Positions 47,886-52,316 of a stretch of 64,000 bases of DNA are shown here, one piece after another (within the stretch, counting starts at the first letter, position 1; every line of letters starts with the position of its first letter). Made by a program: the position numbers and the translations under genes. Location: contig NZ_BAMS01000003.1 in the NCBI RefSeq assembly GCF_000616095.1, positions 186,001 to 250,000 of the forward strand. The letters run 5' to 3'. This DNA comes from Sneathiella glossodoripedis JCM 23214. Lineage in GTDB: Bacteria > Pseudomonadota > Alphaproteobacteria > Sneathiellales > Sneathiellaceae. A model generated the notes under the pieces. It ran no database searches. It worked only from the letters and a program-made list of their open reading frames with translations, and was not told the DNA's origin.

Positions 47886-48760
47886 ATGAATATGGAGGAG
47901 AGTCGCTCAGAGAGGTAAGTATTACAACAGAAGACGGCTGGATTTTAAAAGCGGGCCTCTTTTGCATGGAGCCGCATACCAACCCTTCGTCAGTAATAGT
48001 TGTTTTGCCGGCTATGGGATCGCATTCGCGGCCTGCGAGATTTATGGCCAGTGCCCTTGCGAAAATGGGACATGCGGTTCTTACTGTCGATATACGAGGA
48101 CATGGAAAAAGTGTGCCGCACCCGAAGCATGGCATTGATTATGGTTTTGACACCTTCTTGCAACAGGACATCCCTGCGATCCTTCAATTTGTAAATGGTC
48201 GATTTCCTGAAACGCCTGTATTTTTATTAGGTCACAGTCTTGGAGGCATTCTTAGCGCCATCTATGGAGCAGAGAACCCTGGTGCTGTTCAGGGTGTAAT
48301 AGCGCTTACCACTGCAAACTTGAGGTTGAAATATTTGGGATTGGGATCCTTGTTCGTATTTGTTCCGTTTTATTTTATGGCGAAAATATTGGGGTATGTC
48401 CCCGGCCAACATTTCGGATGGGGTAATCCAATTGCCAAAACTCAGGTTCTAGACTGGGCTAGATGGGCTTTTAGTGGACGGTTGCGCGGTAGTGTTGGCA
48501 GACATCTTGAGCCGGTTTTTGCTTCTTCTCGTACACCAATTTTCTGCGTCGGATTTACCGATGATCACCGCCTTGCACCTCCGCATGTGACGCGAGCCTT
48601 CGCGGATCTCTTCCCAAAAGAATTAACGACATATAAGGTTATTAGCCCAGATGAGGCAGGTGCGTCGAAACTGGGACATTTCGATCATTTTAGAGAGGGC
48701 GTGTTCGTATGGAAAGAAATTGATCAATGGATCAATAATCACACCAATCACAAACTCTGA
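47886..48760 (+). CDS. alpha/beta hydrolase, probable frameshift at the N-terminus
   Basis: Core from residue 30 on is clear: nucleophile elbow GHSLGG, LTVDIRGHGKSVPHPKHGID before it, and a C-terminal HFDHF histidine region; 264 residues from the internal ATG at 47966. Upstream the same frame stays open and in family style (VSITTEDGWILKAGLF) but has no start; the ATG at 47886 with AAGGATCAGTG is one base out of frame. Adding a G to the GG run at 47914 gives MNMEESRSERVSITTEDGW, a 291-residue protein. The substrate is unknown; perhaps a serine esterase or lysophospholipase-like enzyme. Confidence 0.82.
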
Positions 48761-49049: not shown

Positions 49050-49208
49050 AGCTAACAGTGCTCCTATCTAAATAAAATGTGATTAAATCAGTTCACAAAG
49101 TGGCGCGTTAGTAACACGGCCTCATTCCCTTGTGAAGCTATAAAGTTTATATTTTTACCGTGAAATGCAAGAAATTGCAAATTTGCAGCGGATTTGGGGA
49201 GTTTAGCC

Positions 49209-49814
49209 GTGAAAATTGAGCCTAGAGAAATTTTAAAGATGGGGAATCCGTTATTGCGCCAAATTTCCGAACCGGTTGATGAATTTAATGAGCAAGAGAT
49301 TCGGGACCTTATCGAATTGATGCGTGTAAGCATGGTTGCTGCCAACGGTGTAGGCCTCGCTGCTCCGCAAATAGGGGTTCTCAAGCGAGTGGTCATTTTT
49401 GAAGTCCCCGCAGCTCGTATCTCTGAGGAAGACGGTGAGATATCTGCAAATGGAGGTGTGCCGCAGACGGTCCTGATTAATCCGAAGGTTACACCGCTAA
49501 CTGAAGAAAAAGTACTTGGTTGGGAAGGGTGTTTGTCCGTGCCCGGTCTGCGTGGTCTGGTTCCTAGATACACGCGTATTAAATATGAAGGACTGACACT
49601 GGACAACGCTTCTCTAGCTGGAGGCGGAGAGTTGCAGATCCAGAAAATCAGTCGCGATGTGAGCGGATTTCATGCACGGGTCGTACAACATGAAGTGGAC
49701 CATCTGGATGGGGTGCTGTATCCTGAACGCATGACAGATATTCGCCAGTTGATTTTTCAGACTGAACTGCCGTCCTTCATTCGAGCATTGGATGAACAGG
49801 CAGAAAGGAAATGA
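49209..49814 (+). CDS. def: peptide deformylase
   Basis: 201 residues. It removes the formyl group from nascent N-terminal Met, using a metal. All three motifs are intact: GVGLAAPQIG, EGCLSVPG and QHEVDHLDG. The GTG start after GGGGAGTTTAGCC is preferred over a TTG 15 bp upstream. The stop overlaps the COQ9 ATG by 4 bp, giving a def-COQ9 coupling. Confidence 0.95.
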   Translation: MKIEPREILKMGNPLLRQISEPVDEFNEQEIRDLIELMRVSMVAANGVGLAAPQIGVLKRVVIFEVPAARISEEDGEISANGGVPQTVLINPKVTPLTEEKVLGWEGCLSVPGLRGLVPRYTRIKYEGLTLDNASLAGGGELQIQKISRDVSGFHARVVQHEVDHLDGVLYPERMTDIRQLIFQTELPSFIRALDEQAERK

Positions 49815-50470
49815 TTGTGACCGAAATGGAGCAGAAAAACCAAATACTTGAAGCGGTTCTTTCGCATGTGATGTTTGATGGGTGGTCACAAAAGGCGATT
49901 AAAGCTGCGGCTGAAGATTTATCGTTGGATTTGTTTGTGATATCGGAACTTTTCCCTGATGGTCCCCGAGATATCATTTCATATTTTGTTCGCCGCGCCG
50001 ACGATGAAATGGAAAATGAACTGGCCAAACGTAATGTTTTGTCCATGAAAATCAGAGACCGGATCACACTTGCTGTGCGCCTTCGCCTGGAAATGTACAC
50101 ACCCCGTAAAGAGGCCATTCGAAGCGCACTTACCTTACTTGCTTTGCCGCAAAATACAGCCCTTGCTCTCAAGCTTACGGAAGGAACTGTAAGTCGCATG
50201 TGGTACGCTACAGGAGACACTTCTACTGACTTCAGTTACTACACAAAACGGATGACTTTATCAGCCGTATACGGATCCACACTGCTCTATTGGCTGGATG
50301 ACCATTCAGAGGGAGCGCATAAAACATGGGAGTTTCTGGATCGACGGATTGAAAACGTAATGCAATTCGAAACGGCTAAGTTTAAAGCCAAAAATTTTTT
50401 CTCCCAAAAACCAAAGGGGCCTGACCTGCCATCACCAAAAAGGTTTTTCAGAAACTTCAACGCCCGATAA
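49811..50470 (+). CDS. COQ9 family ubiquinone biosynthesis protein
   Basis: 219 residues, similar to COQ9: an N-terminal TetR-like helical region (QILEAVLSHVMFDGWSQKAI, LDLFVISELFPDGPRDIISY), MYTPRKEAIRSALTLLALPQ and MWYATGDTSTDFSYYTKRMT, the conserved WYxxGDxSTDFnyYTKR motif. In eukaryotes and alphaproteobacteria it presents a lipid precursor to the CoQ hydroxylase. Starts inside the def stop and precedes the dehalogenase-like gene by 23 bp. Confidence 0.92.
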   Translation: MIVTEMEQKNQILEAVLSHVMFDGWSQKAIKAAAEDLSLDLFVISELFPDGPRDIISYFVRRADDEMENELAKRNVLSMKIRDRITLAVRLRLEMYTPRKEAIRSALTLLALPQNTALALKLTEGTVSRMWYATGDTSTDFSYYTKRMTLSAVYGSTLLYWLDDHSEGAHKTWEFLDRRIENVMQFETAKFKAKNFFSQKPKGPDLPSPKRFFRNFNAR

Positions 50471-50493
50471 ATCAAAAATGAAAAAGGGACATA

Positions 50494-51225
50494 ATGCTCA
50501 ATAATAAAATAATCCTGGTAACGGACGCGACACATTTTCTTGGAAAACCGGGGATAACAGCTTTAGTGAGAGATGGGGCAACTGTCTTTGCCCAAGACGC
50601 ACGTTTTACCGATAAACAGGCGAGGGATGCGTTTGAGGAGTTAATCCCCGGTGTGACAGCATTGGCTGAACAGGTTCCAAGCGAAGTCATAGACGTAGTT
50701 TTGTCCAAAGCGGGTCAATTGGATGTGCTGGTGAATAATGATGCATTCCCCGCCATAAAGGCGGCGATTGATGAAGCCGAACTTTCCGACTTCACCGATA
50801 CGCTTAACGCGCTTCTTGTTCGTGGTTTCGATTATGCCAAACACGCATCGAAACACATGAAAGGGCGTGGCTGCGGTAAGATCTTGTTTGTCTCATCCGC
50901 TGTGCCAAAGCACGGGCTTCCAAATTATTCCATGTATGTCGCCGCACGCGGTGGGGCAAATGCATTGGCGATATCACTTGCCAAGGAACTGGGACGCCAC
51001 GGAATACAGGTGAACGCGTTGGCCCCAAATTTTATTGAAAGCCCTACCTATTTTCCCAAGGAACTGCTTGAGAATGAAGAAGCTTACAAAAAAATAACCA
51101 AGCCGATACCTCTTGGGCGGCTTGGAAAGCCTGAAGAGGCGGGCGAGTATCTGGCCTTCCTGGCTTCAGATCGCTCTGATTATATCACCGGCCAGGTGCT
51201 CTATTTCGCTGGAGGGTGGGCCTAA
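50494..51225 (+). CDS. candidate halohydrin dehalogenase (SDR-like)
   Basis: 243 residues. The fold is SDR, but the NAD(P)-binding Gly motif is replaced by VTDATHFLG, which matches the halohydrin dehalogenase signature T-x4-F/Y-x-G (T10, F15, G17). The catalytic triad is Ser135, Tyr148, Arg152 (S-x12-Y-x3-R, in SSAVPKHGLPNYSMYVAARG), with Arg where SDR dehydrogenases have Lys. PNFIESPTYFP and YITGQVLYFAGGWA match the equivalent parts of HheC as I remember it. These enzymes turn vicinal halohydrins into epoxides without cofactor. It sits last in def-COQ9, 23 bp after COQ9, with no haloalkane genes nearby. An atypical SDR with another job is possible. Confidence 0.8.
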   Translation: MLNNKIILVTDATHFLGKPGITALVRDGATVFAQDARFTDKQARDAFEELIPGVTALAEQVPSEVIDVVLSKAGQLDVLVNNDAFPAIKAAIDEAELSDFTDTLNALLVRGFDYAKHASKHMKGRGCGKILFVSSAVPKHGLPNYSMYVAARGGANALAISLAKELGRHGIQVNALAPNFIESPTYFPKELLENEEAYKKITKPIPLGRLGKPEEAGEYLAFLASDRSDYITGQVLYFAGGWA

Positions 51226-51227
51226 GG

Positions 51228-52316
51228 TTAAACCTTGGGTTTTTTATCCAGGGCAAAAAGTTTGGTTGTATGACCCATTTTACGTCCCGCTCGTGCTTCG
51301 GCTTTGCCGTACAGGTGCAAACTCATATCAGGGCGGGACAGAATTTCATCCCAATGATCGATGTCATCGCCGATCAGGTTCCACATCACAGCGTTTGAAT
51401 GACGTTTGGCAGAGCCAAGAGGTAAGCCAGCGGCAGCGCGAATGCTCTGACGAAACTGACTGGTTGCACAGGCTTCAATAGTCCAGTGCCCAGAATTATG
51501 TGGGCGAGGTGCCAGTTCATTGACCAAAACCTCCCCATCGGCAGTGACAAACATTTCAACTGCGATCAAGCCGACAAGATCCATATTCTGGACAATTCTA
51601 TGTGACAGATCTGTTGCATGTTCCGAAACCGTATTTAAGATATCCGCAGGCGCGATTGTGATGTCGAGAATGTGGTTTTTGTGACGATTTTCAACCGGTA
51701 TATAGCTTTCAATATCGCCATTTAATCCACGGGCTACGATCACAGAAATTTCCAGCTCAAACGGAACAAAACCCTCCAATATTGAAGGTTGTTGACCAAT
51801 TGCTTCCCATGCTTCGTCTATTTGTGTGGCGTTGTTAATCTTGAACTGGCCTTTGCCATCGTAACCGAAACGGCGTGTTTTCAACACAGATGGCGTGCCA
51901 ATACGAGCGACAGCTTTTTGAAGATCTTCAAGGCTTTCCACATTTGCAAAAGGCGCTGTAGGAACGCCTAAACTATTGAGAAAGCTTTTTTCAATGTGCC
52001 TGTCTTGGGTATATTCAAGGACCTTGCGACCGGGGCGTACCGGAATGATAGGTTCCAGATAGGCGAGCGTTTCCACCGGGATGTTTTCAAATTCAAGCGT
52101 GACAACATCCACGTCGGTTGCAAATTTTCGTAAAGCCGCTTTATCCGTATAGTCAGCAACTGTTTGTTTTGATGCCACTTGCATTGCGGGGGCGTTTGGA
52201 TCCTGCCCAAATACATGGGTCAAATATCCCATTTCTGCTGCCGCTATGGCTAACATGCGGCCCAATTGTCCATCGCCCAGAATGCCGATGGTTTTGCCAG
52301 GTGCAATAACAGTCAT
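51228..52316 (-). CDS. purK: N5-carboxyaminoimidazole ribonucleotide synthase
   Basis: 362 residues, an ATP-grasp enzyme of purine synthesis that carboxylates AIR with bicarbonate. Opens GKTIGILGDGQLGRMLAIAA; TRRFGYDGKGQF and ILEGFVPFELEISVIVARGL are ATP-grasp parts; EMFVTADGEVLVNELAPRPH, NSGHWTIEAC closes the site. It lies 11 bp downstream of purE. Its stop is 2 bp from the convergent stop at 51225. Confidence 0.96.
   Translation of the reverse strand: MTVIAPGKTIGILGDGQLGRMLAIAAAEMGYLTHVFGQDPNAPAMQVASKQTVADYTDKAALRKFATDVDVVTLEFENIPVETLAYLEPIIPVRPGRKVLEYTQDRHIEKSFLNSLGVPTAPFANVESLEDLQKAVARIGTPSVLKTRRFGYDGKGQFKINNATQIDEAWEAIGQQPSILEGFVPFELEISVIVARGLNGDIESYIPVENRHKNHILDITIAPADILNTVSEHATDLSHRIVQNMDLVGLIAVEMFVTADGEVLVNELAPRPHNSGHWTIEACATSQFRQSIRAAAGLPLGSAKRHSNAVMWNLIGDDIDHWDEILSRPDMSLHLYGKAEARAGRKMGHTTKLFALDKKPKV

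Follow-up and report, generated by a model that had tools for sequence, protein, structure and literature searches.

A core gene of Sneathiella for a very probable A/C-branch halohydrin dehalogenase

Halohydrin dehalogenases (HHDHs) convert halogenated alcohols to epoxides without a cofactor. They are prized biocatalysts that first became known from pollutant degraders, and we know of no natural substrate for them. A search of the literature on the natural role of HHDHs returned nothing on point. Two published fingerprints mark the family, T-x4-F/Y-x-G and S-x12-Y-x3-R (PMC4989007; PMC11976700). Among the described members, HheA3 from Parvibaculum lavamentivorans DS-1 has been characterised for HHDH activity (PMC4989007).

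The stretch of 64,000 nucleotides from Sneathiella glossodoripedis JCM 23214 that was analysed here (the window) contains an ATG-initiated open reading frame that very probably encodes such an enzyme, judging from its residues and relatives (Table 1). The protein is an ordinary further member of an already known enzyme family and lies, in the tree, near what should be an assayed enzyme. An earlier note, made from the letters of the window, had called it an HHDH on account of T10-x4-F15-x-G17 and S135-x12-Y148-x3-R152. Both motifs were present exactly so in the translation (the first as TDATHFLG, residues 10-17), both are the published HHDH diagnostics as the note had claimed (defined in PMC4989007 and PMC11976700), and the two further segments it had cited, PNFIESPTYFP and ITGQVLYFAGG, were confirmed as well.

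Table 1. Positions of the predicted HHDH gene, its diagnostic residues and its neighbours in the window
Feature	Positions	Strand	Basis
Peptide deformylase (def), upstream neighbour, 4-nt overlap with COQ9	49194..49814	+	Pfam PF01327
COQ9-family protein, ends 23 nt upstream of HHDH gene	49811..50470	+	Pfam PF08511
Likely ribosome-binding site AAGGGA, 4 nt 5' of HHDH ATG	50484..50489	+	by eye
Predicted HHDH, A/C branch, HheA3-like, 243 aa	50494..51225	+	motifs, PDB/fold ranking, tree
Motif 1, T10-D-A-T-H-F15-L-G17, predicted nucleophile pocket replacing NAD(P) Gly-rich loop	50521..50544	+	translation; compared with HHDHs and SDRs
D83, at position of SDR N-A-G motif; invariant in 23/23 aligned orthologues	50740..50742	+	alignment
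Motif 2, predicted catalytic triad S135-x12-Y148-x3-R152	50896..50949	+	translation; invariant in 23 aligned relatives
Predicted halide loop, P178-N-F-I-E-S-P-T-Y-F-P188	51025..51057	+	alignment
purK, convergent neighbour of HHDH gene	51228..52316	-	ORF call, synteny

A chance match to the motifs was rejected, as the two occurred jointly in a fraction of only 1.45e-4 of 200,000 composition-preserving shuffles of the window protein and are conserved in its orthologues. Neither was found in the seven best other SDRs examined from the same genome, which carry TGxxxGxG where the alignment covers that site and YxxxK in all seven cases. The window protein has the HHDH state at every diagnostic position. 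These are T10, F15 and R152, together with D11 (non-Gly), D83, N179 and the aromatic pair Y186-F187, four additional sites at which HHDHs differ from NAD(P)-dependent SDRs. The T-G-x3-G/A-x-G cofactor loop of SDRs is absent, with D11 and F15 replacing both glycines, and the catalytic Y-x3-K is absent, with R152 in place of the Lys. D83 stands for the Ala of NAG, and within the predicted halide loop N179 stands for the Gly of the SDR PG. The SDRs of the same genome and six other SDRs showed the SDR state wherever the alignment covered the site, a few lacking the Gly of PG. The pocket positions are HHDH-like by alignment, and the whole model matches bromide-bound HheC (PDB 1pwx) with a TM of 0.93.

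Sequence, structure and tree comparisons placed the protein in the same family. The first ten distinct matches in a PDB sequence search were all HHDH-type (2.8e-64 to 5.8e-42), led by 6a41, annotated as a dehalogenase, with HheC and HheA at 1e-42 to 1e-45; the first dehydrogenase followed at 1.7e-28, 14 orders of magnitude behind. With a profile built from 23 relatives, the A/C types ranked in the same order. Foldseek searches with an AlphaFold2 monomer model (mean pLDDT 93.6) returned HHDH-type structures at ranks 1-12 (6a41, HheC, HheA), with a TM of 0.96 for 6a41. A maximum-likelihood tree of 70 proteins, constructed without HheG (G-type) and with bootstrap values that had not fully settled, split HHDHs from SDRs at 100/99 and placed the window protein inside an A/C-type branch (95/97). 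HheD2, HheB and betaproteobacterial D-type genes formed a separate 100/100 branch; as the window protein falls outside it, assignment to the D or B type was rejected. Within the A/C branch the protein belongs to a 100/100 Sneathiella group that adjoins a Parvibaculum group, a pairing with weak support (85/80). The family call of the earlier note is thus supported by the motifs, by the searches with sequence and with structure, by the tree and by the pocket residues. That note had regarded a predicted NAD(P) site, or a grouping with ordinary SDRs, as incompatible with an HHDH; we found the cofactor-loop and Lys residues replaced by those of HHDHs, and the protein within the HHDHs on the tree.

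As the earlier note had stated, def and COQ9 precede the gene; both were recognised by Pfam. COQ9 and the HHDH gene are probably co-transcribed. Oceanibacterium and one Sneathiella subclade both have the def-COQ9 pair upstream, and this order is therefore probably ancestral. In a second Sneathiella subclade the gene upstream encodes a SulP-family transporter, and COQ9 is about 9 kb away or absent from the vicinity, which weakens the case for def-COQ9-HHDH as a functional operon. This transporter, an anion transporter with a STAS domain by Pfam analysis of the L046 copy (L046:9517-11124, minus strand), is encoded on the same strand as the HHDH gene, some 80-120 bp ahead of it, and occupies the same place in L038, L039, L042, L044, L045 and L047. 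On the downstream side purK adjoins the HHDH gene in all the genomes of Sneathiella and Oceanibacterium that were examined, apart from one in which it is about 2 kb off, and purK, purE, a GGDEF gene, a small gene and ubiX follow in sequence in nearly all. Conserved neighbours across families were not found beyond a chromosomal context common to Parvibaculaceae-like families. The absence of dehalogenation and epoxide genes reported by the earlier note holds for the immediate neighbourhood. An alpha/beta hydrolase at 47966-48760 was ruled out as an epoxide hydrolase partner because its nucleophile is a Ser (GHSLGG), whereas epoxide hydrolases and haloalkane dehalogenases use an Asp.

The gene was present in single copy in 23 of the 26 genomes of the order, which are the same 26 genomes as the family-level sample. 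Gaps in the assemblies account for two of the three genomes without a match: in one the contig stops 291 bp beyond purK, and in the other purK is missing too. The third is a 65%-complete MAG. Identity to the window protein was 62-79% within Sneathiella and 52% in Oceanibacterium, whose member Oceanibacterium hippocampi we take to represent the sister genus. Both motifs were intact in every full-length copy, and the divergence of the gene from the window copy was similar to that of the neighbouring purK and COQ9. From these data we conclude that the HHDH gene belongs to the Sneathiella core and has been inherited vertically; a standing physiological role is therefore probable, rather than a recent pollutant pathway. 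In an even sample of Alphaproteobacteria, 41 of 315 good genomes had a match passing E 1e-30, and about 39 of these were clear relatives by score, which places the A/C branch in approximately one in eight sampled species. The earlier note had described the family as rare. This description did not hold up, given these counts and the published mining that had already enlarged the known family from 5 sequences to over 60 (PMC4989007).

Taken together, the comparisons argue strongly that the gene encodes a cofactor-independent HHDH of the A/C branch, inherited vertically as a core gene and probably serving a standing role. Family membership, pocket residues, conservation and synteny come from the analysis itself, whereas activity, direction and substrate are inferences. 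By homology to HheC, the expected reaction is a cofactor-free conversion between vicinal halohydrins and epoxides. S135 would hydrogen-bond the hydroxyl group of the substrate, and Y148, its pKa lowered by R152, would take the substrate proton. The resulting alkoxide would attack the adjacent carbon and expel the halide, leaving an epoxide. The halide would be received in a pocket formed by F15, P178-F180-I181 and Y186/F187, at the site that holds nicotinamide in SDRs. In the reverse direction an epoxide would be opened by a halide or another small anion. In seawater, such an enzyme would probably remove or interconvert natural halohydrins or epoxides. A particular pathway is unsupported, because no EHN-type epoxide hydrolase was found in the 17 Sneathiella genomes searched and no functional neighbour is conserved across families.

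A different use of the same active site deserves consideration, namely that the protein is a lyase that has the HHDH scaffold, needs no cofactor and acts natively on a halogen-free epoxide or an alcohol bearing another leaving group, e.g. an epoxide opened by nitrite, bicarbonate or another small anion, with dehalogenation as a side activity. HHDHs are known to accept azide, cyanide, cyanate, nitrite and thiocyanate besides halides (PMC4989007; PMC11976700), and vertical core inheritance, the lack of a dehalogenation operon and the lack of an EHN-type hydrolase to process the epoxide further would all suit such an enzyme. The SulP-type anion transporter immediately upstream would suit it too, although this adjacency is confined to one subclade and nothing points to any particular substrate. 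The genus also encodes a type II 2-haloacid dehalogenase (G000:C11:290739-291323, minus strand; L199:1420-2160; TIGR01428, 216 bits against a cut-off of 125), followed by an alpha/beta hydrolase gene. As this dehalogenase is likewise core in Sneathiella, it favours halogenated substrates, and we consider the halogen-free alternative unlikely, if worth keeping in view. Natural organohalide metabolism in Sneathiella is plausible because the haloacid dehalogenase occurs in 18 of the 19 good genomes of the family, although no evidence ties it to the HHDH gene.

An ordinary NAD(P)-dependent SDR of the FabG kind, a dehydrogenase or reductase whose likeness to HHDHs would be due to chance or descent, is highly improbable. 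Pfam and NCBIfam did return generic SDR/FabG models alone, but no NCBIfam model reached its cut-off, the FabG model scoring 128 bits where 298 are needed. The fold by itself does not discriminate, because HHDHs and NAD(P)-dependent SDRs share one fold and the best FabG structure lies just 1-2 Z units below HheC (VIA-align Z of 31.9 and about 33, respectively; 36.5 for 6a41). It is the residues that discriminate, and here the Gly-rich loop, NAG, catalytic Lys and PG have all been exchanged for HHDH residues; with the tree and the PDB ranking also contrary, this reading was rejected. Finally, horizontal acquisition as a xenobiotic-degradation gene, as is thought for HheA, HheB and HheC, would recall the origin of the first known HHDHs from pollutant enrichments (PMC4989007) and the single strong plasmid match, a Microbacterium J1-1 haloalcohol dehalogenase with an epoxide hydrolase annotated under the match, but synteny and distribution (a single copy at a fixed locus with housekeeping-like divergence across Sneathiella and Oceanibacterium) render recent acquisition or a xenobiotic island scarcely credible for Sneathiella, and we rejected it.

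With an A/C-branch HHDH as the preferred reading, a culturable marine genus in which the gene is core, single-copy and fixed in position offers a clean genetic system for the natural role of these enzymes. More tentatively, and against somewhat unfavourable odds in our own judgement, the alphaproteobacterial A/C HHDHs that are core in Sneathiella may have a dedicated natural reaction in marine halohydrin or epoxide turnover and represent the ancestral state, from which HheA and HheC would be derived pollutant recruits. The family itself was already known; what is added here is core-gene status in Sneathiella, breadth in Alphaproteobacteria and motif variants.

Some members of the A/C branch would escape the published motif search. 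In L051, L052, L057 and L102 (family f40 and MAG RI_34) motif 1 contains Trp (T-x4-W-x-G) and the S-Y-R triad is intact; judging from these sequences, the F/Y filter would fail to recover such relatives, and part of the HHDH family thus escapes it. In L067, L069, L107 and L109 (Vineibacter terrae and others) Ser replaces the Thr of motif 1, again with an intact triad. Tandem HHDH-like pairs were observed at L093:8647-10140 and L095:8857-10340 (family f97, genomes of 1.6-2.3 Mb) and also in G318. One copy of each pair has S-x12-Y-x3-R, whereas its degenerate partner has Gln for the Arg and lacks both the motif-1 aromatic residue and the PN loop; the pairs possibly form heteromers of an active and an inactive subunit. 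In the tree, an HHDH-like protein with both motifs from a Candidatus Rokuibacteriota MAG (L133) attaches at the base of the D/B branch.

Among known systems, the closest is a Parvibaculum gene (G412:C1:3151122-3151835) that we take to be HheA3 of P. lavamentivorans DS-1. The single strong match in its genome, it encodes a protein 55% identical to the window protein, with both motifs, in the A/C branch and in the neighbouring tree group, but it belongs to another family and lies in another genomic neighbourhood. A further genome presumably represents Tistrella mobilis, the source of HheA5, and its gene product is 42% identical to the window protein. PDB 6a41, described as a dehalogenation enzyme, is 45% identical over the full length and has the same motifs, but unlike the window protein it sits in a Reyranella/Rhodospirillales-like subgroup of the tree. 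PDB 7b73, which we take to be HheD2, and HheB (4zd6) share motifs 1 and 2 with the window protein but are only 35% and 29% identical, respectively, lack an equivalent of D83 and have QN or QH where the window protein has PN. HheA (4z9f, 1zmo) is 39% identical and has the motifs and pocket residues in common, but unlike the Sneathiella gene it comes from actinobacterial haloalcohol-degrading strains. HheC of Agrobacterium radiobacter AD1 (1pwx, 3zn2), at 40% identity, shares the catalytic triad, the residues of the predicted halide pocket, ND and the PN(F/Y) loop, and differs by a C-terminal extension with Trp249 that was not seen in the window protein. The HheC gene lies in an operon with an epoxide hydrolase (PMC11976700), which was not seen at the Sneathiella gene. 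HheC and the Microbacterium plasmid gene are accompanied by an epoxide hydrolase, whereas none of the EHN type was found in the 17 Sneathiella genomes searched.
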